Below, piece after piece: positions 22,774 to 36,238 of a DNA stretch of 43,948 nucleotides. A model generated the notes under the pieces. The model worked only from the letters and a program-made list of their open reading frames with translations. It was not told the DNA's origin and did not search any database. The stretch comes from Verrucomicrobiota bacterium. Lineage in GTDB: Bacteria > Verrucomicrobiota > Verrucomicrobiia > Verrucomicrobiales > DEV007. Within the stretch, counting starts at the first letter, position 1. Every line of letters starts with the position of its first letter. A program made the translations under genes and the position numbers. The stretch lies in contig JAGWVU010000041.1 of NCBI GenBank assembly GCA_018970725.1, positions 1-43,948 on the forward strand, given 5' to 3'.

Positions 22774-23093
22774 ATCCGGCAACCCGGGTTCAGAGCCGGT
22801 AGAAAACCCGCACCGCACCCGTCGCGAGCATCTCCCACCGCGGAGCAGATTCGTGAAGGATCCGTTAGAAAGCGGTATCAAGGAAGCGCGATATCAAGAT
22901 CCTTGCAAATCTTCCTGGCGATCGTCTCTCTGAGCTCCCGATGGTCTCTCCCGTTGCTCATCCGAGGTCAATGGACGCCGTCGGCGCCCCCGACTCTTAC
23001 CGAAAAACCAAAGACAACTCCCGGATAAAGGAACCGCTGGAACCTCATTCCGAATCAATCGGGATGCCCCCCATCACAAGACCTGCGCAAGCG
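22774..23093. other. Gap holding short broken reading frames
   Basis: No complete gene. On the minus strand there is a 27-residue frame with ATG (22878-22961, MSNGRDHRELRETIARKICK and seven more residues), and an open stretch without a start (22790-22864) reading RILHESAPRWEM then AVRVFYRL before a stop. Both look protein-like and could be scraps of decayed genes. The first weakly recalls DruA/DUF4338-type sequence, which I do not claim. Confidence 0.4.
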
Positions 23094-25112
23094 TCATTCC
23101 CGGCCGTTGGTCCGGAGCTCTGCGAGCCGCGCCTCGATCTCGGGCGGGGTGGAATCGGGGAGAGCGCCTCCGAGGTGCTTTGCCAGAAACCTTTCGATTG
23201 CCCGGTAGACGGCCGGTTCGTTGGCGGGATCCGCAAACCCGTGGCCTTCGTTGAGGGCGACCAGATAGTCCACGGACAGGCCTTGGGAGCGGCAGGCTGC
23301 CACAAAGCGGTCGGACTGACCGATCCTCACGGTTTCGTCCCGCGCGCCATGATAGATCAGGATCGGCGCTTTGATCGAGGAAACGGCGTGGACCGGGGAC
23401 TGCCAAACCAACCGGCGGACATCGTCCGGATCCCCGGGGTTGCCGATCTTCAGGTTCAAGTCCCCCTGAAACGGCTTCCACCGTTGGGGAATCTCCCTGA
23501 CATAGGCCGGGAGATCCGACGGCCCGAATAGGCAGACCCCGGCGGCGTAGAGACCGGGGGTGAAGGCCAGTCCCGCCAAGGCCGCGAAGCCTCCGTAGGA
23601 ACCGCCCAGAATGGCGATTCGCTTGGGATCCGCTATATTCTGGCGGATCAACCATTCCACACCGTCGGTGACGTCGTCCTGCATCACGCCGCGACCCCAC
23701 CCGCGATAGCCGGCCGATTCGAACGCCTTGCCAAATCCGGACGAACCCCGGAAGTTCGGTTGGAAGACCGCATACCCCCGGCTGACCAGAAATTGGACCC
23801 TCGGGTCGTAGCCCCAGTAGGTCCGTTTGTTGGGACCGCCGTGCGGAAAAACCACCACCGGCAAGGCAGTGCGCACCGTTCCCGGCGGGACCGTCAAGTA
23901 ACCTGAAATCCGGTGCCCGTCCCGGGCCGGATAGGAGACCGGTTCCATGCGCCCGAGCCATCCCGGTCCGATTGTCTGGTCATGCCAATCCAATCGCACG
24001 ACCCGGTGCGCGTCCCCGTCATAATAGTATTCCGCTTCCGGCCCGGTATCCCGGGTCAAGGTGAGCAACCATCGTTTTCCATCGAGGCTCCCTTCCACCA
24101 ACCGGATCTCGCCGGGAGGCAACAGTTCGCTCGCCCGCTTGAAAAGCGCCTCGGTTTCCGGACAGCTCCAGTGGTATTCGGATTGCCCCCGGAGATAGCA
24201 TACTCCGAGCAGGCGGCGGCCATCGCGGGAGAAAAGCGCTTGGTGGAAATCGACTTCGCGCAACGGGTCTTCCGCCAAGGACGTCCGTTCGCCGGTCGCC
24301 AGATCGACGCTCTCCAACCGGGCGAATCCGGCGTCTTTTCCCGAGTTGGTCACGATGTAGGCGCAAGAGTCGTCCGCATGAATCCCCGCGAGATTCAAGG
24401 ATTCGCCGGGGGCGCAGCGCAGCAACGGTTTCAGCTGGCCGGGATGGAAGGCGACGAGTTCCTTGCTCCCGTCCGGTTCCGGCCGGATGCCCACCAGAGT
24501 GTTGCCGCTCCGCGACACGTTCCAAAGGGAAACCCCGTCCACCTTCGCGTGCAGTGGTTCCCATCCGGCGGACGCGGACCCGACGCCGTGGAGGTCGACG
24601 AATCCCGGCCGATCCGGGGCCGGGACGCTGAGGACGATCCGGGTGGCCGAGGAATCGTTCCCGCGGATGGAACCGACCAGTTCCGCCTGCTTCCCGGGTT
24701 CCGCGAGGGTCCGGACGACGATCCCCTCCGCGCCGGGGGAGTCCGTCAGGTTCGCGCAAGCGATCCGCGTTCCACCGGAGGACGTGCGGGCCGCGAAGGC
24801 GAGACACCGTTCGTCCGCCCAGAAAAACGAAACGACCTGGGTGTCATCCCCGGAACTGATTTCCCGGGTGCTGCCCCGGAGATTCCCGGGACAGGCGACG
24901 CGGAGGGCGGTCCCCCGTTCGCTCGCCTGGAGAAACGCCACGAAGTCGCCGCGAGGAGAAAGACGAAAGACCTCCGCCGACCGGGGCGCGAAAAAAGCGG
25001 CCACGGGCGGCATCGGATCGCGGACGACTCCGTGGGTTGGCGACGGTGCGCCGGCTAGGACGGCACCGGCGCACACAAATGCGCAAATGACCCCCGTTTT
25101 GGTGGCCGTCAT
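23094..25112 (-). CDS. S9 (prolyl oligopeptidase) family serine peptidase
   Basis: 672 residues. The start MTATKTGVICAFVCAGAVLAG looks like a signal peptide, so it is probably exported. A beta-propeller domain of about 400 residues (sequence such as VFRLSPRGDFVAFL at the start) precedes an alpha/beta-hydrolase domain. The catalytic triad is visible: Ser505 in GGSYGGF, Asp592 in ARDETVR and His624 in NEGHGF. VVFPHGGPNKRTYWGYD supplies the oxyanion region typical of S9C acylaminoacyl-peptidase-like enzymes. It lies 21 nt downstream of the small CxxCxGTG protein gene on the same strand and may share its transcript. The substrate is unknown. Confidence 0.92.
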   Translation of the reverse strand: MTATKTGVICAFVCAGAVLAGAPSPTHGVVRDPMPPVAAFFAPRSAEVFRLSPRGDFVAFLQASERGTALRVACPGNLRGSTREISSGDDTQVVSFFWADERCLAFAARTSSGGTRIACANLTDSPGAEGIVVRTLAEPGKQAELVGSIRGNDSSATRIVLSVPAPDRPGFVDLHGVGSASAGWEPLHAKVDGVSLWNVSRSGNTLVGIRPEPDGSKELVAFHPGQLKPLLRCAPGESLNLAGIHADDSCAYIVTNSGKDAGFARLESVDLATGERTSLAEDPLREVDFHQALFSRDGRRLLGVCYLRGQSEYHWSCPETEALFKRASELLPPGEIRLVEGSLDGKRWLLTLTRDTGPEAEYYYDGDAHRVVRLDWHDQTIGPGWLGRMEPVSYPARDGHRISGYLTVPPGTVRTALPVVVFPHGGPNKRTYWGYDPRVQFLVSRGYAVFQPNFRGSSGFGKAFESAGYRGWGRGVMQDDVTDGVEWLIRQNIADPKRIAILGGSYGGFAALAGLAFTPGLYAAGVCLFGPSDLPAYVREIPQRWKPFQGDLNLKIGNPGDPDDVRRLVWQSPVHAVSSIKAPILIYHGARDETVRIGQSDRFVAACRSQGLSVDYLVALNEGHGFADPANEPAVYRAIERFLAKHLGGALPDSTPPEIEARLAELRTNGRE

Positions 25113-25133
25113 GCGGTCAGCCAGGGCAAGGGA

Positions 25134-25304
25134 TCAATAATCGCTGTTAAATCCCGTCCCTTTGCAAGCAAAACAGGCTGTATTGCCATTGCCTCCACTG
25201 AAGCCCGTGCCGTTGCAGAAAGTACAACGGAGCCCGAGCGCCTGAACCGTAGCGACGGTTGCGAGTGACAGACCGACCAAAGCGATGATGATTTTATGTC
25301 TCAT
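25134..25304 (-). CDS. Small exported protein with two CxxCxGTG motifs
   Basis: A 56-residue gene read directly from the bases, with ATG at 25304 and TGA at 25134. A basic MRHKIIIALVGLSLATVATV start with a following QALG looks like a signal peptide. The mature part is only about 35 residues and contains two copies of a DnaJ zinc-finger-type motif, CTFCNGTGF and CFACKGTGF, separated by about ten residues rich in Gly and Asn. DnaJ carries four such CxxCxGxG repeats that bind two zincs; two copies could bind one zinc or be redox-active. It sits 21 nt upstream of the S9 peptidase and diverges from the kinase gene. The repeat and signal peptide make a real gene likely, but there is no clear ribosome-binding site. 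Confidence 0.6.
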   Translation of the reverse strand: MRHKIIIALVGLSLATVATVQALGLRCTFCNGTGFSGGNGNTACFACKGTGFNSDY

Positions 25305-25346
25305 TGAGTGTTAGGATTGGGTTGTTTGCTGTCAGGGCGGAGAGGA

Positions 25347-25359
25347 CCGAATCGTTCGG
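25347..25359. promoter_or_regulatory. Inverted repeat CCGAA-TCG-TTCGG in the divergent region
   Basis: A perfect 5-bp inverted repeat with a 3-nt centre lies 43 nt upstream of the small-protein start and 172 nt upstream of the kinase start. It could be an operator for a dimeric regulator, but no regulator is identified. Confidence 0.3.
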
Positions 25360-25390
25360 CCCCCACCTTCCCCTCTTCCCTGTTTCGGAG

Positions 25391-25428
25391 CCGGGACGAA
25401 AATCTTCCCCGGAATCGTTTTTTTTTTT
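25391..25428 (+). terminator. Terminator-like hairpin and T11 run in the kinase leader
   Basis: CCGGG (25391-25395) can pair with CCCGG (25408-25412), and after AATCG there is a run of eleven Ts (25418-25428). On the plus strand this resembles a short intrinsic terminator placed 103 nt before the kinase start. No plus-strand gene ends here, so it could limit read-through or act as leader attenuation. The stem is only 5 bp and the 5-nt spacing before the T-run is longer than usual. Confidence 0.35.
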
Positions 25429-25530
25429 GCGGCAGGTCCTGCCTCCCCGCTCCGGCCGGTTGTTGCAGCGGAAGGAAATCCGGTCCATCCGTGCCAAGGT
25501 GACGGGCCCCCGTTGCCCTCTCCAACCCCG

Positions 25531-27690
25531 ATGCATCCTGACGAAACACTTGATGGTTACACCTTGCTCCGGCGCATCGGGGCCGGCGGCTACGGGGAGG
25601 TCTGGTTGTGCCGGTCCCGCGCCCTCGGCGACCTGAGGGCGTTCAAGTTCATCGCCTCGGCCAGCCAGGGTGCGCTGGACCGGGAATTCAAGGCCCTGAC
25701 CAACTACCGGAACGCCGCGGCCAGGCTCCGCTCGCCCCACCTGATGCCCATCGAGCACGTCGGTCGCGCTCCGGAAGGACTCTTCTACGTGATGCCGCTG
25801 GCCGACGGAAATCTGGCGGATCCCCTCGATCCCGACTGGAGTCCATTGACCCTCGGGACCGTGATTGCCCGGAGAAAAGAGGCCCCGGCCTGGTTTTCCT
25901 GTGAGGAAATTTCGGGCTGGATGCGCCCGGTGCTGGAGGCCTTGCAAATCCTTTCGGACGCCGGATTCGCGCATCGGGATGTGAAGCCGGACAACATCTT
26001 GTTCTGTGGCGGCCGACCGATCCTGGGGGATATCAGTTTGCTCGACGAGGATCACGCCGATCTCACCCGTTGCGGAACGCCCGGCTACTCCGCCCCATCG
26101 TGGTATCAGGGCGGTCACCCGGATCTGTATGGAGCCGCCGCCACGCTCTACACCCTGCTGACCGGGAATCTTCCGGACCGGATGGGTCGGTCCGCCTTCA
26201 ACGGTCCTCCCCAGGGAGACGGTTCCCTCACCGCGGAAGAGCGAATCCACCGCAAGCGCCTCCACGCGGTCGTCCGTCGCGCCACCCAGGAGCGGGTGTC
26301 GGAACGTTACCCCGATTTCCAGGCCATGGCCGCGGCGCTGGCCGGTGCACCAACCGCTCCTCCCTCGCGAACTCCGCCGGTGCGGGCGGGGATCGCGACC
26401 GTGGCGCTGCTGCTTGGAGCCGCGTCTTTCTTCTTCTTCCAACCGTTCCCCGGAGGATCCCGTCCGGAGCCGCCGGAAAACGTTCTTCCCTCCGCGGAGC
26501 GCATCCAGGCCGATTTGGGGAGGGGAGATTTCGCTTCGGCGTTGGCGGGCCTTGAGCTTCTTTTCAGCCGGGATCCCAAGGCCCAAGCCGACCCGGACTA
26601 CTCGACGGCTCGCGCCATGGCCCTCCAGGGGCTCGGACGGACCTGGGAAGCGCGGGAAGAGTTGCGCCGGGAGATTCCGCGCTCGCCCGAAATCAGCGAC
26701 GTCACCACCCGCCAGCACCTCTGGGAACAACTCGGGGATTTGAGCGGCGCCGAGACCGACCTCACCCGGATCCTGGAAACGTCCGGACCCGACGCGCTGC
26801 TCCTCTCCATGAGAGCCGGACTCCGGGCCCGGCAAGGGGACTTCAAAGGGGTTCACGCGGATTGGGAGGCCGCGAGGAAGATCCGTCCCGCCGATCCCGG
26901 GCACTTGCGGTCGGTCGACGCCCTCTGGTCGCCCATCAAGAAACTCCATCCCGCCTACATGGATTACCTCCGGTCCAAGGGAGAGGAACTGCCGCCCCTC
27001 CAATGGATCTGGAGCCTTGCGGACGAACCCTGGGTTTTCGACTCTTTTCTGGAGGAGCCGGCTTCCAGTCCCCGGTGGAATCCCGTGGCCGAATCCGGGT
27101 TTTTTGATCCGTTCGCGCAAGAGCCGGCCTTCAGTCCCCGGGATCAAGCCGCAAGAACCATCCTCTGCCATGATCTCGATCTGGCGTTCCGGACCGGGGA
27201 CAACCGCAAGGCCCTGACTTTGCTCGACCGGATCCTTTATGCGAAGCCGGGGACGGGCAACGCGCCGGAGTTGTCGCTGCTCCGTGCCCTCCTGTTGCGG
27301 CGGTTGGACCGCGGGCCGGAGATGGAGGCGGAACTGGGCAGGCCCTGCCACCGGGAACTGGGCTGGGACCGGATCGACGCGAGGATCTATCTCTGGGATC
27401 AGTTGCAGCGTTGGGAGGACGCGGAGCATTTCCTGACAAGCATGCTGGAATATCCGCCGGATTCCGCGGAAGACCCCGACCTCCGGAAATTGAAACTCCT
27501 GAAGTATCGCGCCACCGTCCGCGCCCGGCTGGGCCAGTTCGACGCCGTCTCCGTAGACCGCAGTCTGGCGATGGAATCGTTCGGCCTCCAGGCGGAACGC
27601 CGTGCCGAGGTGGAGCAGATTTGGGATACCCTGGCCCAGGAGTTCCCCGCTTACGCCGAACATCTCCGCGCCTCGCCGGAGAAAAAATAA
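25531..27690 (+). CDS. Membrane Hanks-type Ser/Thr kinase with TPR-like C-terminal half
   Basis: 719 residues from the ATG at 25531 (an upstream TTG at 25513 would add six). The kinase domain spans about 10-270: glycine loop IGAGGYGEV (16-24), lysine 39 in AFKF, catalytic HRDVKPDN (Asp150, Lys152, Asn155), and the metal Asp167 in GDISLL where DFG is usual. The APE-type motif reads APS, losing its glutamate. A single membrane helix follows at about 287-304. The remaining 415 residues outside the membrane are helical with TPR-like spacing (QGLGRTWEAREEL, ARQGDFKGVHADWEAARKIRP, RTGDNRKALTLLDRIL). A 13-residue element is repeated at 27037-27075 and 27103-27141. It is followed 47 nt later by a secreted protein and an ECF-type sigma gene, suggesting signal transduction. 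Confidence 0.88.
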   Translation: MHPDETLDGYTLLRRIGAGGYGEVWLCRSRALGDLRAFKFIASASQGALDREFKALTNYRNAAARLRSPHLMPIEHVGRAPEGLFYVMPLADGNLADPLDPDWSPLTLGTVIARRKEAPAWFSCEEISGWMRPVLEALQILSDAGFAHRDVKPDNILFCGGRPILGDISLLDEDHADLTRCGTPGYSAPSWYQGGHPDLYGAAATLYTLLTGNLPDRMGRSAFNGPPQGDGSLTAEERIHRKRLHAVVRRATQERVSERYPDFQAMAAALAGAPTAPPSRTPPVRAGIATVALLLGAASFFFFQPFPGGSRPEPPENVLPSAERIQADLGRGDFASALAGLELLFSRDPKAQADPDYSTARAMALQGLGRTWEAREELRREIPRSPEISDVTTRQHLWEQLGDLSGAETDLTRILETSGPDALLLSMRAGLRARQGDFKGVHADWEAARKIRPADPGHLRSVDALWSPIKKLHPAYMDYLRSKGEELPPLQWIWSLADEPWVFDSFLEEPASSPRWNPVAESGFFDPFAQEPAFSPRDQAARTILCHDLDLAFRTGDNRKALTLLDRILYAKPGTGNAPELSLLRALLLRRLDRGPEMEAELGRPCHRELGWDRIDARIYLWDQLQRWEDAEHFLTSMLEYPPDSAEDPDLRKLKLLKYRATVRARLGQFDAVSVDRSLAMESFGLQAERRAEVEQIWDTLAQEFPAYAEHLRASPEKK

Positions 27691-27737
27691 TTCCGATTTT
27701 CCGGAAGATCCGGCGCGCCGCCGCGAAGAGGAGTGAA

Positions 27738-29303
27738 ATGACCACACGCGTCGCTTTTGCTTGGATCCACTTTGCGTTCACCGGGCTGCTCGCCGGAACG
27801 GCCCTCCTCCTTCCGCCCTCCGCGGGGGCGCAGATCCGGACGGACCGGGGGGAGGAATACTACTTGATCCGCACGCTCGAGGGACTTTATGAGAAGCTGC
27901 CGATGCAGGCAACCGACCCTTCCGAATTCAAGGCGGCAGCGGCGGACCTGCGCAGTGAGGCCATTCGTTACAAGGTGCGCGCCGATGAAGCGCGGCTCCA
28001 CGAAAGCATCGGGTTCGGTTTTGACGAGTTCATCGCCCAGCTCGATGCCGTCAGCGCATTCCTTTCCAAGGTCGAGGACATCCAGGCGAACGCAGCCGCA
28101 CAGGTGCCGCTCCAGCAATTTGGTTCCGGATTCAAAGGAGGCATGGCGGCGGCGCAAACATCGGATTTCTCCACCATGGAAGGTGCCGTGGCTTCGATTT
28201 TGGTCGGTGGTCTGGTCTACGCCATGGATTCCTGGAGCCAGTCCAGCGCGTTGGAGGAGTCCGTGAAGAAAGAAGTGGAAGCCGAGGCCGGGCGGTTGCA
28301 GGACGCGCTGCTGCAAAGGCTCGAGAGATCACGTCAGAGGTTCCTCGATCTGGCCCGTGAAAAAGGCTGGCCGGAGCGGGAGATCGGCTGGGATTTGTCG
28401 ATGCAGAGCGCCACCACCACGGTGCAGCTGATCCAGAAAGGCGATCTGAACGGCTTGATCTCTCTGGCGGCTGGAAAGCGGGCGGAGCGTCCCTTCGATC
28501 CACACATCGCACTAAGCCACAACCTGCTGATGGCGATCCGCAGCGAAGAGAGACCGTCCGATCTGGATCGGATTTGTGAGGATAGCCTCGAACTCAAGGC
28601 CTTGATTCCGGCGCATTCCGTCTATGATCACCACCGTTTGGGCGTCCTCTACCAGGCGGCCCTCCTCGCATCCGCCTCAAGGGGGGCGGAGCGTTTGGGC
28701 GGCGCTTCCCCCGGCAGTTCTTCCCGGAGCCGCCGTGCGGTGGAACTTTGGGAGGCGGCCCATGAGGCCCGCACGCCCGACACCGGGGACGAACTGGCCT
28801 TGTATCGGGCCTGTGCTTACGCCGGAGATGGGGATCCGGCGAGGGCGCGGACAGAATTGCGCGCTCTCCATGACCGGCTCAAAGACCAACCGGATTATCT
28901 CTATGCTTGTGCCTGTGTCACCTGCTTGGACGGCGACCGGGATCTGGCTTTGAAATTCCTTGAGAAGGCCATCAGGACGGACGGCGTCGATTTGAGCGAC
29001 GTTCGCAAGGATCCGGACCTGCACGATCTCCGAACCTATCGGAAACAGGAATTTGTGGCGCTGACCACTCCGCAATGGGAATGGACCGCCACCAACAGTC
29101 TTCTCTGGGCGGATGTCTTTCTCACCAACAAATCCGCCTTCAGCCTGACCAATGTCCGGCTCACTTCCACCACGCCCGGTTGGGAGCCCGACCTGACGGT
29201 CGATATCCTGCGGCCGGGTGAGACCAAGAAGTGGGAGTGGAATGCCCAACCACCGGAGGGCCAACTCCGCGCGATGCGATTGACAAGCGATCAGAATCCT
29301 TGA
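27738..29303 (+). CDS. Exported helical/TPR-like protein, unknown
   Basis: 521 residues with a signal peptide (FAFTGLLAGTALLLPPSAGA). AGGAG eight bases upstream of the ATG is a good ribosome-binding site. The sequence is alpha-helical; a pair of TPR-like helices appears late: ELALYRACAYAGDGDPARAR, then LYACACVTCLDGDRDLALKF. The last 90 residues are beta-rich (SLTNVRLTSTTPGWEPDL). I recognise no named domain. It starts 47 nt after the kinase gene and its stop is 29 nt before the sigma-factor start, so it probably lies in the same operon. Its TPR-like repeats recall those of the kinase C-terminal half, which would face the same compartment, so contact between the two is plausible. Confidence 0.8.
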   Translation: MTTRVAFAWIHFAFTGLLAGTALLLPPSAGAQIRTDRGEEYYLIRTLEGLYEKLPMQATDPSEFKAAAADLRSEAIRYKVRADEARLHESIGFGFDEFIAQLDAVSAFLSKVEDIQANAAAQVPLQQFGSGFKGGMAAAQTSDFSTMEGAVASILVGGLVYAMDSWSQSSALEESVKKEVEAEAGRLQDALLQRLERSRQRFLDLAREKGWPEREIGWDLSMQSATTTVQLIQKGDLNGLISLAAGKRAERPFDPHIALSHNLLMAIRSEERPSDLDRICEDSLELKALIPAHSVYDHHRLGVLYQAALLASASRGAERLGGASPGSSSRSRRAVELWEAAHEARTPDTGDELALYRACAYAGDGDPARARTELRALHDRLKDQPDYLYACACVTCLDGDRDLALKFLEKAIRTDGVDLSDVRKDPDLHDLRTYRKQEFVALTTPQWEWTATNSLLWADVFLTNKSAFSLTNVRLTSTTPGWEPDLTVDILRPGETKKWEWNAQPPEGQLRAMRLTSDQNP

Positions 29304-29332
29304 ATCATGGGCGGTTTGTCGACGCCGGGCGC

Positions 29333-29959
29333 ATGAATCATGAATATCCCCGCACCCCGGTTTCGCTCCTGAGCTGTCTCCGGGAAGGGGTTTCCAGGCC
29401 GGAGTGGGAGCTTTCCTGGCAGCGCTTCCTCGAGCTTTACCGGCACCCTCTCTCCGCCTCGGCCCGGGGCTGTTACCGGCATCACACCGGGGGCGGCGAG
29501 GCCCCTGATGAATTCGTTGAAGACGTGGTCGCCATCGCCGTGGCCGATTTTTTCTCCAAAGGTCAACAACGCTACGACCCCGCAAAAGGCAGGCTGCGCA
29601 CCTACCTCAGGGTCATGATCAATGCCCGCGTGGTGGACGCCCTGCGCAAGGAACGTCCGGCGGACCGCCGCCCCTTCCCGGACGCCGAACCTGCCGCACC
29701 TCCCGAAGAAAGGGAAGCGGAAAAGGAGGCGTTCCATCAGGCCTTGCTGGCTACCTTGCTCGAGGATCTGCGCGCTCAGATCCCCAGCGCTCAGTTCGAA
29801 ATTTTCGAGCGTGTCAGGCTCAAACGCGAATCACCGCAAGAGGTGGCCGATGAACTGGGGGTGCGCCGCAATGTGATCGACAAGTCCATCCACAAAACCA
29901 TGACCAAGCTTCGGGAACTTGCCCGCCGCGAGGAATACCGGGAGGAGTTTGATCCATGA
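29333..29959 (+). CDS. ECF-type RNA polymerase sigma factor
   Basis: 208 residues. Region 2 spans about 20-105, with an -10-recognition-like stretch KGRLRTYLRVMINARVVDAL; region 4 follows at about 140-200, including a helix-turn-helix ESPQEVADELGVRRNVIDKS and then IHKTMTKLRELA. There is no sigma region 1 or 3, as in ECF factors. The start was placed at 29333 because it immediately precedes the conserved part and lies 29 nt after the upstream stop. The nearest neighbours are a membrane Ser/Thr kinase and an exported protein; no canonical anti-sigma is visible. ECF factors controlled by a Ser/Thr kinase are known (EcfP-PknT in Vibrio), making phosphorylation a reasonable hypothesis. Its stop overlaps the next small gene by ATGA. 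Confidence 0.88.
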   Translation: MNHEYPRTPVSLLSCLREGVSRPEWELSWQRFLELYRHPLSASARGCYRHHTGGGEAPDEFVEDVVAIAVADFFSKGQQRYDPAKGRLRTYLRVMINARVVDALRKERPADRRPFPDAEPAAPPEEREAEKEAFHQALLATLLEDLRAQIPSAQFEIFERVRLKRESPQEVADELGVRRNVIDKSIHKTMTKLRELARREEYREEFDP

Positions 29960-30135
29960 AGGCCTTGGATTCCCTGTTCCAACCGGCGGAATCGCCCCTC
30001 ACCGAAGAGCAGGAAGAGGCGCTCACCAACCTGCTCGCCTCCGCCTATGCCGGGGATGAGCAGGCCGGGACCGACCCCGCTTTGCAGCGCATCGCCGGCA
30101 AAGTGCAGGCCTACCTCCAGTCGCCACCTTCCTGA
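29956..30135 (+). CDS. 59-aa protein overlapping the sigma gene
   Basis: A gene of 59 residues too short for a standard ORF listing. The ATG overlaps the sigma stop (ATGA), a strong sign of translational coupling. The sequence is acidic at first (PLTEEQEEALTNLLASA) with a leucine/alanine-rich helix and ends in YLQSPPS. No zinc-binding motif, membrane segment or other family mark is visible. Its position and size are what one expects for a small regulator of the sigma factor, for example a co-regulator or anti-sigma, but nothing in the sequence shows it. It is also compatible with a small independent protein. Confidence 0.6.
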   Translation: MKALDSLFQPAESPLTEEQEEALTNLLASAYAGDEQAGTDPALQRIAGKVQAYLQSPPS

Positions 30136-30386: not shown

Positions 30387-30767
30387 CTACCCATGTGAAA
30401 ACCGAGCGCGCCGGCGACCTGATCTGGGTGAGCGGGCAGTTGCCCGGCGGTGAAGCGGTTTACATTGAGATTCATGCAACAGACTCTGGCGATGGAATCG
30501 TTGCAAGAAGGCGCTGGTCCAGTTCATCTGCATCTCCACAATGAACTGCCGCCCCCGCCGGTCCTGGCAGAGCACGTCCACGATGGTGTTCTTGAAGAGC
30601 GGCAGGGACGGAACCTGCTCGCTCGGCAGGTAGTCGAGGGACTCGATCTGCTCGTCCTCGGTCGCGAACGGGAGCAACGCATTGAGGAAACTCCGCAGGA
30701 TCCCCGGGTGCTCTCCGAAGATGCGCTTGAAGACCAGCTCGTTGCGAGGATCGAGCAACCGCTCCAT
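30387..30767 (-). pseudogene. Truncated Rpn/PDDEXK-type transposase-nuclease remnant
   Basis: From ATG 30767 the frame reads MERLLDPRNELVFKRIFGEH and continues as LRSFLNALLPF, IESLDYLPSEQ and IVDVLCQDRRGRQFIVEMQM, the N-terminal third of the PD-(D/E)xK 'transposase'/Rpn family (FNPxxDxxFKxxFG, then D..........G..Y.VEMQ). The catalytic core pair is recognisable in IVDVLCQDRRGRQFIVEMQ. The homology stops at about 30500 after AFLQR; beyond it the peptide becomes basic and low in conserved residues until 30387. The usual family length is about 300 residues, so most of the gene is missing. I call it a broken copy, probably a recombination scar. Confidence 0.65.
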
Positions 30768-30864
30768 GCCGCACCTTGCCACGTCCTCAAGAGTTCACAA
30801 GCCGAAGCGATCTCCGTGGCCGCCCACCCGTCCGATCCGCTGAGACTTTTACCTCCCCAAACAC

Positions 30865-32463
30865 TCAGCGGGGCGGGCCAGCAAAAACCAGATAGAGGAA
30901 CGCCACGAAGACCAACAGGCCGATCGCCACCGGGCGAGTCCAGCGCCAGGGCGTCAAATCGACTTCATGGCTGTCGCGCTGGACCCAGCCCTCCATCCCG
31001 TTTCCCCCCCGGCTCCGGAGATATTGGTAGAGCATCAGCAGAAGGAAAACGCCCCCGAGGAAGTGAAAGTTCGCCGCAGCCGACGCCGTCCACGAGGAAA
31101 ACGGGGGCACGAAATACCCGATCAGAAGAATCGCGCAGCCCCCGACCAACGCATGGTTGGCCGCCGCAGCAGTCGCCCGCTTGAAAAGCAACCCGGCCAG
31201 CACCACGGAAAAAATCGGAATGAAATACAAACCGTTCATCTTCTGGAGATACCCGAAGATACTGGCCTGGCCCGCGAGGAAGGGAGCGGCGCACATCGAG
31301 AAAATGGCGATCACCGTTCCCACCAGTTTGCCGTTTTCGATCACCCGACGGTCGTCGGCCTGATCGTGCTTCATCCAGTGCTTGTAGACGCCGAGGGAGA
31401 AAAGGGTCGCGGTGGAATTCAGCACCGAGTTGAACGAACTCAAAATCGCCCCGGCCACCACCGCCGCGAAGAAACCGGTCAGCCAGTCCGGGAGGACATG
31501 ACCCACGAGGATACCATAGGCCCGGTCCGGCTGGGTTACTTCGTCCGCGTAGAGATGCAACGCGACGATCCCCGGCAAAATCAGAATCAAGGGGGTGAGA
31601 ACCTTGAACAAGGCCGCCAGCAAGACCCCGCGTTGTCCCTCGGCCAGATTCCGCGCCGCGAACGTCCGTTGGATGATCTGCTGATTTGTCGTCCAGTAAA
31701 ACAAGTTCAGCAGCATGACCCCGCTGAACAACGTGTGCCATGGCACGGAGGACCGGTCTCCCCCGAGGGAAACGAATTTCTCCGGATGCGCCGCCTTCAC
31801 CTCCGCCAGGCCGGCGAGCATGTTCCCATCCCCGGCCTTCCCCAGGGCGAGCACGGTGATGAGGATGCCACCCGTCAGCAGACCGAACCCGTTCAACGTA
31901 TCCGAAACCGCAACCGCGCGCAGCCCACCGAAGATGGCGTAAATCGATCCGACGATCCCGATGAACCAGACCGAGGCCCAAAGCAACGCCGTGTCGTTGC
32001 GGATCCCGGTCATGGCTTCCAGATCGAGGATGTCCCTCATCCCGGTGGCCCCGGTGTAGAGAATCATCGGGAGCAGGATGACCGCGTAAGCCGCGATGAA
32101 AATCAGACTGGTCAGGGAGCGGGTGGTCCCGTTGAAGCGTTCCTCGAGGAACTCGGGGATCGTGGCAATCCCGCTCCGCAGATACTTGGGCAGGAAAAAA
32201 ACGGCCATCACCACCAGCGAAGCCGCCGCCAAAACCTCCCACGCCATCACGAGAATGCCGTCCTGATAGGCCGCCCCGTTCAAACCCACCAACTGTTCGG
32301 TGGAAAGGTTGGTCAGGAGGAGGGAACCCGCGATATAGCCGCCAGTCAGCGTTCGGCCCGCCAGAAAGTAACCGGTGGAACTGGCGTCATCGTCCTTGCG
32401 CGTCAACCACCAGGTCAACACACCGACCAACGCGGTGAAAAAGAGAAAGGTCAGGATCGTCAC
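30865..32463 (-). CDS. Sodium:solute symporter (SSS family)
   Basis: 532 residues from the GTG at 32463, which places the first membrane helix (ILTFLFFTALVGVLTWWL) directly at the N-terminus; the frame extends upstream without any other suitable start. About 13 membrane helices are predicted. Family marks are the SSTGYFLAGRTLTGGYIAGS segment near residue 25, GLRAVAVSDTLNGFGLL, and the later GAILSSFNSVLNSTATLFSL. The SglT-like branch moves sugars or other organic solutes with Na+; the actual solute is not predictable here. It diverges from a PQQ-propeller gene, with 106 nt between starts. A tail of about 50 residues after the last helix pair ends in LVFAGPPR. Confidence 0.92.
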   Translation of the reverse strand: MTILTFLFFTALVGVLTWWLTRKDDDASSTGYFLAGRTLTGGYIAGSLLLTNLSTEQLVGLNGAAYQDGILVMAWEVLAAASLVVMAVFFLPKYLRSGIATIPEFLEERFNGTTRSLTSLIFIAAYAVILLPMILYTGATGMRDILDLEAMTGIRNDTALLWASVWFIGIVGSIYAIFGGLRAVAVSDTLNGFGLLTGGILITVLALGKAGDGNMLAGLAEVKAAHPEKFVSLGGDRSSVPWHTLFSGVMLLNLFYWTTNQQIIQRTFAARNLAEGQRGVLLAALFKVLTPLILILPGIVALHLYADEVTQPDRAYGILVGHVLPDWLTGFFAAVVAGAILSSFNSVLNSTATLFSLGVYKHWMKHDQADDRRVIENGKLVGTVIAIFSMCAAPFLAGQASIFGYLQKMNGLYFIPIFSVVLAGLLFKRATAAAANHALVGGCAILLIGYFVPPFSSWTASAAANFHFLGGVFLLLMLYQYLRSRGGNGMEGWVQRDSHEVDLTPWRWTRPVAIGLLVFVAFLYLVFAGPPR

Positions 32464-32569
32464 GGCTCCGGCATGCTGCCCAAAGCAACCCCGCCTGCCT
32501 AGTCCTTTCTTCGCGATCCGGCAACAAAGAGTTGGTGCCGGGGTCCGGATGCGGTTGAATCCAGACGGC

Positions 32570-33817
32570 ATGAAATCGACCCGGCTTTTCCAGATTGTCC
32601 TCGCCCTCGCCTCCCCGCTCCCGTCCCTTCCCGCCTCCGATTGGCCTTGGTGGCGCGGCCCGCAGCGCAACGGAATGATTTCCGCAACGCCCGACCAAGA
32701 TCCTCCGGTAGACTTCGCGGACTCCCGTTCCGTCAAATGGACGGTGGATCTCCCCGGTCGCGCCCACGGGTCCGCCTGTGTCGCCGGCGACCGCGTCTTC
32801 CTGCCCTCGGCGGACGAGACCGCCAAGACCCAATCCATCCACGGGTTCGACCGGGCCACCGGACGTCTCCTCTGGACCACGGTGGTGCATCGGGACGGGA
32901 TGAACCAAAAATCCAACCGCAAGGAGAGTTGGGCCTCGGCCACCCCGGCCTGCGACGGTGAAAGGGTTTACATGAGCTTCGTCCACGGGGATGCCGTGTT
33001 CACCACGGCCCTCGGCCTGGACGGAAAACAACTCTGGCAGACCCGCATCTCCGAATTTGTCATCCATCAGGGTTATGGGGCCTCCCCGGCCGTTTGGGAG
33101 GATCTGGTGATCGTCGCGGCCGACAGCAAAGGCCCCGCCGGAGGAGCGGTTTGCGGCTTGGACCGGAAGACCGGAGCCGTCGTCTGGAAAAAAGCGCGCG
33201 AGGCCAAACCGAACTACACCTCCCCCATCATTCTCGAGGCTGCAGGCCGCACCCAGCTGTTCCTCAGCGGGATCGACAAAGTGACCAGCCTCGATCCCCG
33301 GGACGGTCGGGTGCTCTGGGAAACGGCGGGCGCCACCACCGAGTGCGTCACCTCCACGGTCACTGACGGCAAGCGGATTTTCACCAGCGGGGGATACCCG
33401 AAAAACCACGTCGCCGCCATCCTCGCGGATGGTTCCGGAACGGTCGCGTGGGAAAGCAAGGAACGCGTTTACGTCCCCTCCATGCTGGTGCGGGAGGGAC
33501 ATCTCTTCGCCGTCCTGGACAGCGGGGTGGCAGCCTGTTGGGACGCGGCCACCGGGGCGGAAAAGTGGAAGGAACGTCTCGGCGGCACCTTCAGCGCCTC
33601 GCCTGTGATGGTGAACGACAGGGTCTATGCCGCCAACGAGTCCGGCGAAATTTTCGTCTTCCGGGTGGCTCCGGACCGGATGGAGCTGCTGGGGCGGCAC
33701 AAGATCGCCGACGAAATTTTCGCGACGCCATCGATCGCGGACGGTCGGATCTATCTGCGCGTGGCGTTTCTCGAGGGCGAACGGCGCACCGAGAAGTTGC
33801 TTTGCCTCGGACGTTGA
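32570..33817 (+). CDS. Exported PQQ-like beta-propeller protein
   Basis: 415 residues from the ATG at 32570; an in-frame ATG at 32549 would add seven. The signal peptide (LFQIVLALASPLPSLPAS) leads into DWPWWRGPQRNG, a usual opening of exported pyrrolo-quinoline-quinone-like (WD40-type) propellers in Planctomycetes and Verrucomicrobia. Repeated blades follow, each marked by alternating strands ending in D and a following GxxxW: GFDRATGRLLW, GLDGKQLWQT, GLDRKTGAVVWKK, LDPRDGRVLWET, WDAATGAEKWKE. It is probably periplasmic and binds no evident cofactor; dehydrogenase residues are not seen. It diverges from the SSS symporter and precedes the APC permease by 45 nt on the same strand. Confidence 0.9.
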   Translation: MKSTRLFQIVLALASPLPSLPASDWPWWRGPQRNGMISATPDQDPPVDFADSRSVKWTVDLPGRAHGSACVAGDRVFLPSADETAKTQSIHGFDRATGRLLWTTVVHRDGMNQKSNRKESWASATPACDGERVYMSFVHGDAVFTTALGLDGKQLWQTRISEFVIHQGYGASPAVWEDLVIVAADSKGPAGGAVCGLDRKTGAVVWKKAREAKPNYTSPIILEAAGRTQLFLSGIDKVTSLDPRDGRVLWETAGATTECVTSTVTDGKRIFTSGGYPKNHVAAILADGSGTVAWESKERVYVPSMLVREGHLFAVLDSGVAACWDAATGAEKWKERLGGTFSASPVMVNDRVYAANESGEIFVFRVAPDRMELLGRHKIADEIFATPSIADGRIYLRVAFLEGERRTEKLLCLGR

Positions 33818-33862
33818 AAATTGCCGCTTGGCAGCCTCCGCTTCCTCGCCGAACGAACGTCC

Positions 33863-35248
33863 ATGCCGGCGCCCGTTTCCCCACCCGCGGACCCTCCCGA
33901 ACTCGCCCGCAAGCTGAACGGGTGGCAGGTTTTGCTTTACGGGCTCGGCTCGATGTTGGGCGCGGGAATCTACGGTTTGATCGGGCGGGCCGCCGAACAG
34001 TTGGGGAATGCGGTCTGGGCCGCGTTCCTCTTCGCCATGGTGGCGGCGCTCCTCACCGGACTGTCCTACGCCAGCGTGGGCAGCCGGTTTCCCAAGGCCG
34101 GCGGGGCGGCGTATGTCACCCACCGCGCTTTCGGCTGGCCCTTGCTGAGCTATGTCACGGGCCTTTCCATCACGATGAGTGGTCTCACCAGCATGGCCAC
34201 GGGCTCCCAGTTGATCGCGGAAACCTTGGACAAGGCCCTGCCCGCTGACCTTCCCGTCAAGGCCTTGGCCATCGGACTCGTGGCCCTTATCGGCTGGCTC
34301 GTCTTCCTGGGCATCGAGGAAAGCATGAGAGTCAACATTTTCTGCACGTTCGTCGAGGCCGGGGGCCTGCTCTTCATCATCTTCGCCGGCCTGCGCTTCT
34401 GGGGCGGCGTCAACTACCTCGAAACGGCGCACGACACTCCCTCCGCCGGTCCCGGTTCCGGTCTCGGGATCAGTCTGATCTTACAGGGCGCCGTCCTCAC
34501 CTTCTTCTCCTTCATCGGGTTCGAGGACATCCTCAACGTGAGCGAGGAAGTCAAGAACCCGCGCCGTGCCATCCCCTTCGGCTTGGTCGGAGCCATGCTG
34601 GTGGCCACCGCGATCTATCTGGCCGTGGCCATCACCGCCGTTTCCGTCGTTCCCTGGGCGGATCTGGCCGCCAGCAAAACCCCGCTCATGGACGTCGCGA
34701 AAAAGGCGGCCCCGTGGTTCAAGGACATCGATCGCGTCTATCTCGCGATCACCATTTTTGCGGTCGGAAACACCGCCCTGCTCAATTACATCATGGGCTC
34801 GCGCCTGCTCTACGGCATGAGCCGTCAATCCCTTCTTCCGGCTGTGATGGGCCGCATCCACCCACAACGCCGCACCCCTCACATCGCCATCCTCGTCCTC
34901 TGGGCCATCGTCAGCCTGCTCGTCCTCAGCGGCAGTGTGAAGCAATTGGCCGAAGCCACGGTGATGCTGCTTCTTACTGTATTCGCTATCGTCAACACCG
35001 CCCTCGTGATCCTCCAGCGCCGTCGGGACGAACCTCCCGGCAGCTTCGAAATCCCCACTGTCATCCCCGTCGCCGGAGCCGTCGTCTGTCTGCTGCTCCT
35101 CTTCTCACGCATCCAGGGTGGCTTTGCCTCGGAAAAACCGGAACTCCGTATCGCCCCGCTCATCGCCCTCGGAATCATCGGCGCCTCGGTCGCCCTCTTT
35201 TTCGCCACCCAGCGCGCCAAGACGTCGCCCCCAGGAAAAAACCCGTGA
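33863..35248 (+). CDS. APC family amino acid permease
   Basis: 461 residues from the ATG at 33863 (a TTG at 33821 is possible). Twelve membrane helices are predicted. The first is typical of the APC superfamily: GSMLGAGIYGLIG with the unwound GxG substrate region, and later FFSFIGFEDILNVSEEVKNP, the conserved 'fF.f.Gfd....v.eE.knP' segment of helix 6 and the following loop. These transporters import or exchange amino acids or polyamines. It follows the PQQ-propeller gene by 45 nt on the same strand and might be co-transcribed. It converges on the aminotransferase gene with a 6-nt gap. The substrate cannot be assigned. Confidence 0.92.
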   Translation: MPAPVSPPADPPELARKLNGWQVLLYGLGSMLGAGIYGLIGRAAEQLGNAVWAAFLFAMVAALLTGLSYASVGSRFPKAGGAAYVTHRAFGWPLLSYVTGLSITMSGLTSMATGSQLIAETLDKALPADLPVKALAIGLVALIGWLVFLGIEESMRVNIFCTFVEAGGLLFIIFAGLRFWGGVNYLETAHDTPSAGPGSGLGISLILQGAVLTFFSFIGFEDILNVSEEVKNPRRAIPFGLVGAMLVATAIYLAVAITAVSVVPWADLAASKTPLMDVAKKAAPWFKDIDRVYLAITIFAVGNTALLNYIMGSRLLYGMSRQSLLPAVMGRIHPQRRTPHIAILVLWAIVSLLVLSGSVKQLAEATVMLLLTVFAIVNTALVILQRRRDEPPGSFEIPTVIPVAGAVVCLLLLFSRIQGGFASEKPELRIAPLIALGIIGASVALFFATQRAKTSPPGKNP

Positions 35249-35254
35249 CGCGGC

Positions 35255-36001
35255 TCAGGCGGACGGTGCCAGACCGGGAACCTGCCGGAGACGGAGCGTC
35301 ACCTCCCCCGGCGCCGGCAACTCGCGCTCATCGATCCGGACAATCCCCTGCACGCCCCGCAGGCTGGAGGTGAGGAAAGCCTCCCGGCAAGTGGCCAAGT
35401 CAGCGGGCGGACCGCTCTCTTCCCTCACCTCGATTCCCCTCTCCCGACACCGCTCGAGGACCACTTCCCGCATCACCCCGGGAAGGCAACCGGAGGCCAG
35501 CGGCGGCGTGATCAAGCAGCCATCCCGGCGGACCAGAAACAGGTTGGAAGTCGCGCCCTCGCAAAGTTCGCCCCGCGTGTTCGCGAGGATGGCTTCGTCC
35601 GCCCCACGTTCTCGCGCCTCCCGCAAAGCCACGAGGTTCCCGGCGTAAGAAGTCGCCTTGATCCCGGCCAAAGCATCGCGCTCATTGCGGACGAAAGGGC
35701 TCGTCACCACCGCTGCCGTGGCCGGATACGGACTCAGGGCGGTGGCGGTCACCAGAACCGTCCCGGGAACGGCGGTGATGCGAAGCCGGGACAACCCCCG
35801 TTCCAAGCCGTTTTCCACCATGAGCCGGCGCAGAGCGGGCTCCAGCGTCCCGACATCAGGAACCGGTCCCACCCCCAACCGCGCCGCCCCCCCGGCCAAC
35901 CGCCGGAGGTGCCGGTCCAGAAAGCAAGGCCTGCCGTCCCTCCCCAACAAGGTTTCGAAGACCCCCCAGCCGACCAGCCAACCCGGATTGTCCGCCTCCA
36001 A
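35255..36001 (-). CDS. Class IV aminotransferase (PabC/IlvE-like), start uncertain
   Basis: The enzyme family uses PLP (BCAT, D-amino acid aminotransferase, aminodeoxychorismate lyase). Visible are GVFETLLGRDGRPCFLDRHL, the PLP lysine in GIKATSYAGNLVALREARE, and the phosphate loop GELCEGATSNLF. The last part includes LPGVMREVVLE and FLTSSLRGVQGI. From the TTG at 36001 the product is 248 residues. Homology, however, continues upstream through the usual first strand RVWINGRLCDAADPV to about 36046, and that frame holds no ATG, GTG or TTG between 36001 and the region antisense to the next gene. Either the true start is rare, the N-terminus is shortened, or a frameshift lies just upstream, where an out-of-frame GTGATG is present. 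Choice among PabC, IlvE or Dat is open. Confidence 0.8.
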   Translation of the reverse strand: MEADNPGWLVGWGVFETLLGRDGRPCFLDRHLRRLAGGAARLGVGPVPDVGTLEPALRRLMVENGLERGLSRLRITAVPGTVLVTATALSPYPATAAVVTSPFVRNERDALAGIKATSYAGNLVALREARERGADEAILANTRGELCEGATSNLFLVRRDGCLITPPLASGCLPGVMREVVLERCRERGIEVREESGPPADLATCREAFLTSSLRGVQGIVRIDERELPAPGEVTLRLRQVPGLAPSA

Positions 36002-36238
36002 GACCGGATCAGCCGCGTCGCAAAGCCTGCCATTGATCCAGACGCGAAGAGACGGCCGGTCATCACCGGGAGTTGGAAGTTGCGGTTCGATGTCGGAGAC
36101 TTCGCTCCGATCCGCGTTGTCTTCAACTGCGATGCACCCGGGGAACGAGTTCGTCGGATTCCAAGCTTGATGGCGGGGCGGGGCGGGATAGGCTTGGGAG
36201 TGCGGTCCGGACGGTGGATCGTCCTTTGGACCCTGGTC

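Follow-up and report, generated by a model that had tools for sequence, protein, structure and literature searches.

The window, by which we mean the whole 43,948-nt stretch of contig JAGWVU010000041.1 (assembly GCA_018970725.1) of a Verrucomicrobiota bacterium, carries two diverging arms of genes: an S9 peptidase and a 56-aa protein, p56, on the minus strand, and a membrane Ser/Thr kinase, an exported tetratricopeptide repeat (TPR)-like protein, a sigma factor of the extracytoplasmic function (ECF) type and a 59-aa protein, p59, on the plus strand (Table 1). From their comparison with a related genome we read these six genes as a single cassette, and we lean towards the view that it is inherited together as an envelope-signalling unit, a leaning that covers the whole interpretation given below jointly. 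Open reading frames (ORFs), Pfam and NCBIfam bear out what a sequence-only reading of this DNA had said of the genes it named and their strands, of the 47- and 29-nt gaps that follow the kinase and exported genes, and of the ATGA overlap between sigma and p59. That reading had bounded the unit at 25134-30135, and the genes it placed there are real; the range is nevertheless too short, the S9 gene also belonging to the unit.

Table 1. Features of the cassette, in window coordinates
Feature	Position	Strand	Basis
S9 peptidase	23094-25112	-	Pfam
p56	25134-25304	-	ORF, homologue in G002
Divergent intergenic region	25305-25530		aligned with G002
Kinase	25531-27690	+	Pfam, catalytic motifs
Kinase/exported spacer, 47 nt	27691-27737	+	alignment
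Exported TPR-like protein	27738-29303	+	NF047558, model
Sigma	29333-29959	+	TIGR02937
p59	29956-30135	+	homologue in G002, ATGA overlap with sigma stop

The six genes and their extent

The same genes stand in identical order in G002, the second species of the genus (Verrucomicrobia MAG V1-115, record QQNE01000023.1). When the full 43.9-kb window was compared by blastn with 19 kb around the G002 locus, three matches were obtained (23092-25319, 25531-27041 and 27147-30122), which together reach from just beyond the S9 stop codon to the last p59 codons, and the flanks of the cassette gave none. A third genome of the genus, G001, which is 96% complete, returned no match to the sigma at 1e-6, to the exported protein at 1e-4 or to S9 at 1e-20 (p59 and p56 were not searched for there), and its kinases are distant relatives only, the best being 33% identical to the window kinase. 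Sharp block edges at 23092 and 30122 with unrelated flanks, together with a congener in which S9, the exported protein and the sigma went unmatched, thus indicate that the six genes form a cassette. Codon comparison of this one species pair gave pN/pS values of 0.38 for the kinase, 0.36 for the exported protein, 0.17 for the sigma, 0.47 for p59, 0.36 for S9 and 0.38 for p56, p59 and p56 being short genes. Neither p59 nor p56 is a chance ORF, each having in G002 a homologue at the corresponding position with such a ratio.

Another explanation, which we consider improbable, is that the six genes are joined merely by recent common ancestry of one segment, S9, p56 and p59 being unconnected to the kinase-sigma pair. 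This would be in keeping with a block that is known from two genomes only, and with the existence of homologues of the exported protein outside it. It agrees poorly with the fact that similarity ends at the gene ends on both sides, that the flanks are unrelated, that the partner genome carries the right-hand neighbours elsewhere, without the cassette, and that pN/pS falls between 0.17 and 0.47 for all six genes. A scan of contigs with the exported protein returned two loci, in V1-115 and in Verrucomicrobium sp. BvORR034, and a scan with the sigma as query returned no match.

Orthologues of the right-hand neighbours occupy separate, co-linear stretches of the partner genome in both directions of comparison (window 30865-36042 aligns with G002:C49, and 9778-18876 of L024, the cassette locus of the comparison, with G000:C34), and the left-hand neighbours had no match in the partner-genome stretches compared. 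We read the block as occupying different sites in the two genomes; a clean insertion is not claimed, because the left flanks were not located. No clean empty site was found in the partner genomes, and no repeats at the cassette edges were judged to pair both edges. A short minus-strand ORF flanks the right edge (30387-30782); it may resemble a piece of an Rpn-type nuclease/transposase, and it could be related to relocation of the cassette.

The kinase (719 aa; Pkinase match at aa 10-215, E 3.5e-17) is of the Hanks type, with GAGGYGEV at 17, HRDVKPDN at 148, GDIS at 166 and a membrane stretch, for which we take its strongest hydrophobic segment, aa 284-302; the DFG position reads DIS in the window and DFS in G002. 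Its outer part (~319-715) models as a helical, TPR-like solenoid, for which most of the PDB matches listed are TPR proteins, at low TM-scores; built from a two-sequence alignment, the model is of poor quality over the kinase domain, and the outer part alone was used. As a query against 387 genomes of the phylum, the outer domain found its own genome and two weak matches, which says nothing on orthology. Over the kinase gene runs an antisense ORF (25294-27747, minus strand, 817 aa) that tblastn matched in G002 on the same side (46% over 792 aa); it most likely results from codon usage at high G+C.

The exported protein (521 aa, 78% identical in G002) matches TPR_END_plus (NF047558, E 8.8e-10) above the family cut-off and has a hydrophobic stretch near its N-terminus, starting at 7, with a weaker one at 144, where the model is poor. 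Its AF2 model (mean pLDDT 76.5) is a helical solenoid followed by a C-terminal beta domain at ~447-516, and TPR chains are among the top fold matches at Z 9.2-10.8, values below the ~13 under which helical repeats may share a common arrangement only. The TPR-like character that had been proposed for both outer parts is therefore upheld by the solenoid models, by their mostly TPR matches and by NF047558, and these model-based fold matches would speak for the type of fold at most, not for function. G002 preserves the 47-nt spacer between the two genes well: over the 40 nt that start at the kinase stop codon there are 5 differences, each of them a transition. In the window the spacer holds the inverted repeat TTCCG..CGGAA; synonymous sites differ more (pS 0.51 in the kinase, 0.35 in the exported gene).

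On the other arm, the S9 peptidase is a 672-aa member of the prolyl oligopeptidase family (Peptidase_S9, PF00326, E 1.3e-40) with GGSYGG and the Asp and His of the triad present, and is 68% identical to its counterpart at the same place in G002. The p56 protein carries CxxCxGTG, gives below-cutoff matches to DnaJ zinc and Anti-TRAP families and is 60% identical to its homologue at the same place in G002. Both begin with a hydrophobic stretch and are read as exported.

Kinase and sigma genes as neighbours in the phylum

With the kinase domain (aa 1-280) as query, 99 of the 387 genomes were matched at 1e-20, the own genome included. We took 40 loci in 36 genomes, namely 34 of the best 35 places (G256 was skipped) and six further down the ranking (G148, G112, G266, G054, G230 and G377), and searched them with an HMM of the window sigma and twelve other sigma relatives. 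A sigma gene lay within 1 kb of the kinase in 35 of these 40 loci (31/34 in the best-ranked subset), and, seen from the other side, 35 of all 36 sigma matches were beside the kinase. The arrangement varies: 26 sigma genes are listed 5' of the kinase, three with overlapping ORFs (L106, L107, L115) were read as 5', four are on the opposite strand and two (L121, L125) follow the kinase, as in the window, where both genes are on the same strand with the exported gene alone between them. The window sigma thus has the kinase neighbour that characterizes ECF43-like and the wider kinase-linked ECF factors.

The reverse search gave the same picture. A two-row sigma profile at 1e-12 found 18 places besides its own in the 387 genomes, 16 of them beside a kinase (each locus taken with flanks of at most 1.5 kb), the exceptions being L155 and L150, which is short and at a contig end; the 16 include two weak kinase matches on the opposite strand (L148, E 3.5e-7; L157, E 3.7e-8), and since L141, L142 and L144 are common to the kinase and sigma sets the two counts are not wholly independent, 13/15 remaining without them. 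Three of the four best sigma places are themselves kinase loci (G116:C31, G107:C27 and G366:C59, of kinase ranks 3, 2 and 28). In looser sigma searches, a kinase lay within 1 kb in 13 of 19 enlarged loci (L025-L043, which include a second sigma of the own genome and leave L024 uncounted; G026:C3, the 3.4-kb locus L019, and G000:C42, locus L002, neither of which matched the window kinase, were not enlarged). These gene neighbourhoods show that kinases and sigma factors of these kinds often occur together in genomes of the phylum, and they give strong support to their coupling. Hence, of the kinase-sigma signalling module proposed by the sequence-only reading, the coupling of the two genes stands, having withstood the comparison with related genomes that this reading had set as its refutation, whereas S9 as a member and the anti-sigma slot of the 59-aa gene had been missed.

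These neighbourhoods also bear on the possibility that the sigma is controlled mainly by transcription or protein turnover, the kinase having other substrates and travelling with it for regulatory convenience. Both are published modes of ECF control, as far as PMC8999054 was available to us, and no phospho-site is predicted in the window sigma. Adjacency that spans distant families and differing gene orders, however, favours a physical or functional partnership, and we regard this possibility as very unlikely.

The exported protein was seen next to such a kinase only in this genus. The notion that it is a general kinase partner, conserved beside the kinase, had to be rejected, as its homologues in three other genomes of the 387 (G311, G051, G105) and in G013 have no adjoining kinase or sigma of this kind, judged within the stretches at hand, two of these contigs being only ~9 kb. 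Matches in G070 and G072 are short TPR pieces. Two distant homologues (L049 4717-6774; L057 8518-10428) have an N-terminal zinc-ribbon-like part, a below-cutoff Pfam match, followed by what reads as a membrane segment. In a sigma-linked kinase at L034 (9088-12075) a WD40 beta-propeller replaces the TPRs, and because it stands where the TPRs would, the sensor part of such kinases seems exchangeable.

The small protein p59 and control of the sigma factor

The sigma (208 aa; TIGR02937 sigma70-ECF, E 3.5e-15) is 80% identical in G002, and RpoE/SigE (2q1z, E 1.7e-4) is the one PDB sequence that it matched up to E 0.1. In an alignment from which repeats of one place were dropped, region 2.2 keeps E60, E63 and D64 and has zero Ser/Thr in the motif in both species, the register being somewhat doubtful there as a local insert adjoins the motif. 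An EcfP-type phospho-switch is accordingly not indicated for this sigma, EcfP-PknT being the precedent that the sequence-only reading had named. The insert itself (aa 45-56, 29465-29500, CYRHHTGGG) keeps C47, H50, H51 and T52 in both species, is absent from the other aligned sigmas and is a possible metal or modification site.

Downstream of the sigma, p59 has no Cys, no His and no hydrophobic stretch; its homologue in G002 is 68% identical, shows the same ATGA overlap with the sigma and keeps T16 and T39. Among the 40 kinase loci, 10 have this place filled by a small Hx3Cx2C protein, ~68-85 aa long where the start could be set (in L067, L092, L105 and L121 it lies inside a longer ORF, the start being chosen by hand or left unset; the L126 copy and the kinase ORF overlap); three of these proteins were assigned to no family by Pfam. 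As a zinc signature, Hx3Cx2C is published for class I anti-sigma domains (ASDIs), ~56% of which carry it, according to the part of PMC7406223 available to us. L121 and L125 run kinase, sigma, ATGA-coupled small protein, which is the window layout minus the exported gene. Of the 13 adjacent pairs of L025-L043, 6 have the same motif near the N-terminus of the kinase, and four of those six kinases are the next best matches of the small-protein HMM (E 0.009-0.022); the Pkinase match of the window kinase begins at aa 10, so that it has no N-terminal extension of this kind.

Judged by gene order, then, p59 sits in the anti-sigma slot. It lacks the Hx3Cx2C by which ASDI membership is recognized; since zinc-less ASDIs exist, this alone does not exclude it from them. 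It shares slot and ATGA overlap with the small proteins of L121 and L125, and differs from them in having neither Cys nor His and no profile similarity. Presumably it also resembles the NepR-type small anti-sigma of ECF15 in being small and soluble; neither Pfam nor NCBIfam gave a NepR match for p59 (E up to 1). Because of its position, coupling and conservation, we regard p59 as a candidate zinc-less regulator or inhibitor of the sigma.

The scheme that we consider somewhat probable is one in which a TPR-sensing kinase frees or activates the sigma, with p59 as its zinc-less regulator. The outer TPR domain of the kinase, aided by the exported TPR protein, would sense a signal in the envelope or outside it and switch the kinase on, which would then phosphorylate the sigma or, with greater likelihood in this case, p59 and so raise sigma activity; p59 would be a small cytosolic inhibitor standing in for the Hx3Cx2C anti-sigma-like protein of some relatives. 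The freed sigma would transcribe its own cassette, including the exported peptidase and p56, and probably other genes. S9 and p56 would likely be outputs or envelope-side helpers, two roles that the evidence does not separate, and the divergent region, in which alignment with G002 shows short shared blocks only, is expected to hold promoters for both arms.

The closest tested architecture points elsewhere. In Xanthomonas citri, PknS, a Hanks kinase with periplasmic TPRs, phosphorylates EcfK directly (PMC13147305, available in part), and the window kinase could conceivably switch its sigma on in the same manner, p59 being accessory or unrelated. Conserved Ser/Thr residues do exist elsewhere in the sigma, and a sigma beside the kinase with no small zinc protein detected is the commoner state among the kinase loci. 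On the other hand, in EcfP, EcfK and other ECF43 factors the acidic DAED motif of region 2.2 is missing, a Thr being the acceptor in EcfP, where the phosphate supplies the charge (PMC8999054, in the part available), whereas the window sigma retains its acidic residues and has no Ser/Thr there; moreover, p59 is conserved, ATGA-coupled to the sigma and inside the cassette edge. Direct phosphorylation is thus a tentative alternative, and it is because of the retained E60, E63 and D64 that we prefer, with modest confidence, control through p59 over an EcfP-type switch.

Several observations weigh against the scheme of kinase, p59 and sigma. Besides its restriction to two known genomes, the cassette contains no ECF-like promoter motif common to both species in the divergent region, where the sequence-only reading had proposed a search and alignment with G002 provided it, and the homologues of the exported protein outside the genus do not lie beside such kinases. 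Five of the 40 kinase loci have no nearby sigma (none in L111, L119, L122 and L128, and one 4.4 kb away in L127), and six of the 19 sigma-found loci have no kinase within 1 kb (L026, L032, L033 at a contig end, L036, L037 and L038). The small zinc protein is undetected in 25/40 kinase loci that do have a sigma, and the N-terminal Hx3Cx2C occurs in 0/35 adjacent kinases of the kinase-found set. When p59 was compared with the small zinc proteins, hhalign gave a probability of 0.1 and the HMM scores were -1.2 and 0.1 bits, 511/992 and 195/990 shuffles doing as well; likeness to zinc-less kinase N-termini was inconsistent, with as good a score in 4/992 shuffles for p59 and in 182/997 for its G002 homologue.

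Two origins proposed for p59 are consequently unsupported: that of a detached zinc module, there being no profile similarity to the Hx3Cx2C proteins, and that of a detached kinase N-terminus, since the score beat most shuffles for p59 and failed to do so for the G002 homologue. More speculatively, and with considerable doubt, kinase-linked ECF factors in Verrucomicrobiota may have an anti-sigma module that shuffles between a free Hx3Cx2C protein, a fusion at the kinase N-terminus and, in this cassette, a new zinc-less 59-aa family; phosphorylation of this module by the kinase, for which p59 offers T16 and T39, would free the sigma, and the exported TPR protein would be the partner with which the kinase senses.

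Relation to known kinase-linked sigma factors

Kinase-linked ECF factors are a known kind. PknS-EcfK of Xanthomonas citri, PknT-EcfP of Vibrio parahaemolyticus and the ECF43 group at large resemble the present system in the adjoining Hanks-type kinase and ECF sigma (PMC13147305 and PMC8999054, both available in part), and PknS has the same plan of cytoplasmic kinase domain, membrane region and periplasmic TPR region (PMC13147305). The window differs from these pairs in the acidic region 2.2 of its sigma, with no Ser/Thr in the motif, and in adding the exported TPR protein, p59, S9 and p56. Outside ECF43, kinase-linked groups may retain an acidic motif (PMC8999054, section 3.4 and table); their mode of action may be different and, according to the available part of the same source, calls for characterization. 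Among them, ECF59, ECF61, ECF62 and ECF217, with models from Planctomycetes, likewise have an ECF sigma beside a Ser/Thr kinase; we compared them by description only, and the cassette layout of the window does not appear in that description as far as it was available to us (PMC8999054).

What is new here is the six-gene layout, the exported TPR partner and the zinc-less small protein in the anti-sigma slot. No description of this layout appeared among the titles and starts of abstracts listed in our literature search, in which subscription journals are thinly covered. Collectively, a compact block that joins a kinase, an outside partner, a sigma and a candidate 59-aa regulator, and relatives in which an anti-sigma-type motif is either free or placed at the kinase N-terminus, turn the difference from PknS-EcfK and PknT-EcfP into a testable question, namely whether the kinase acts on the sigma itself or on an anti-sigma module.

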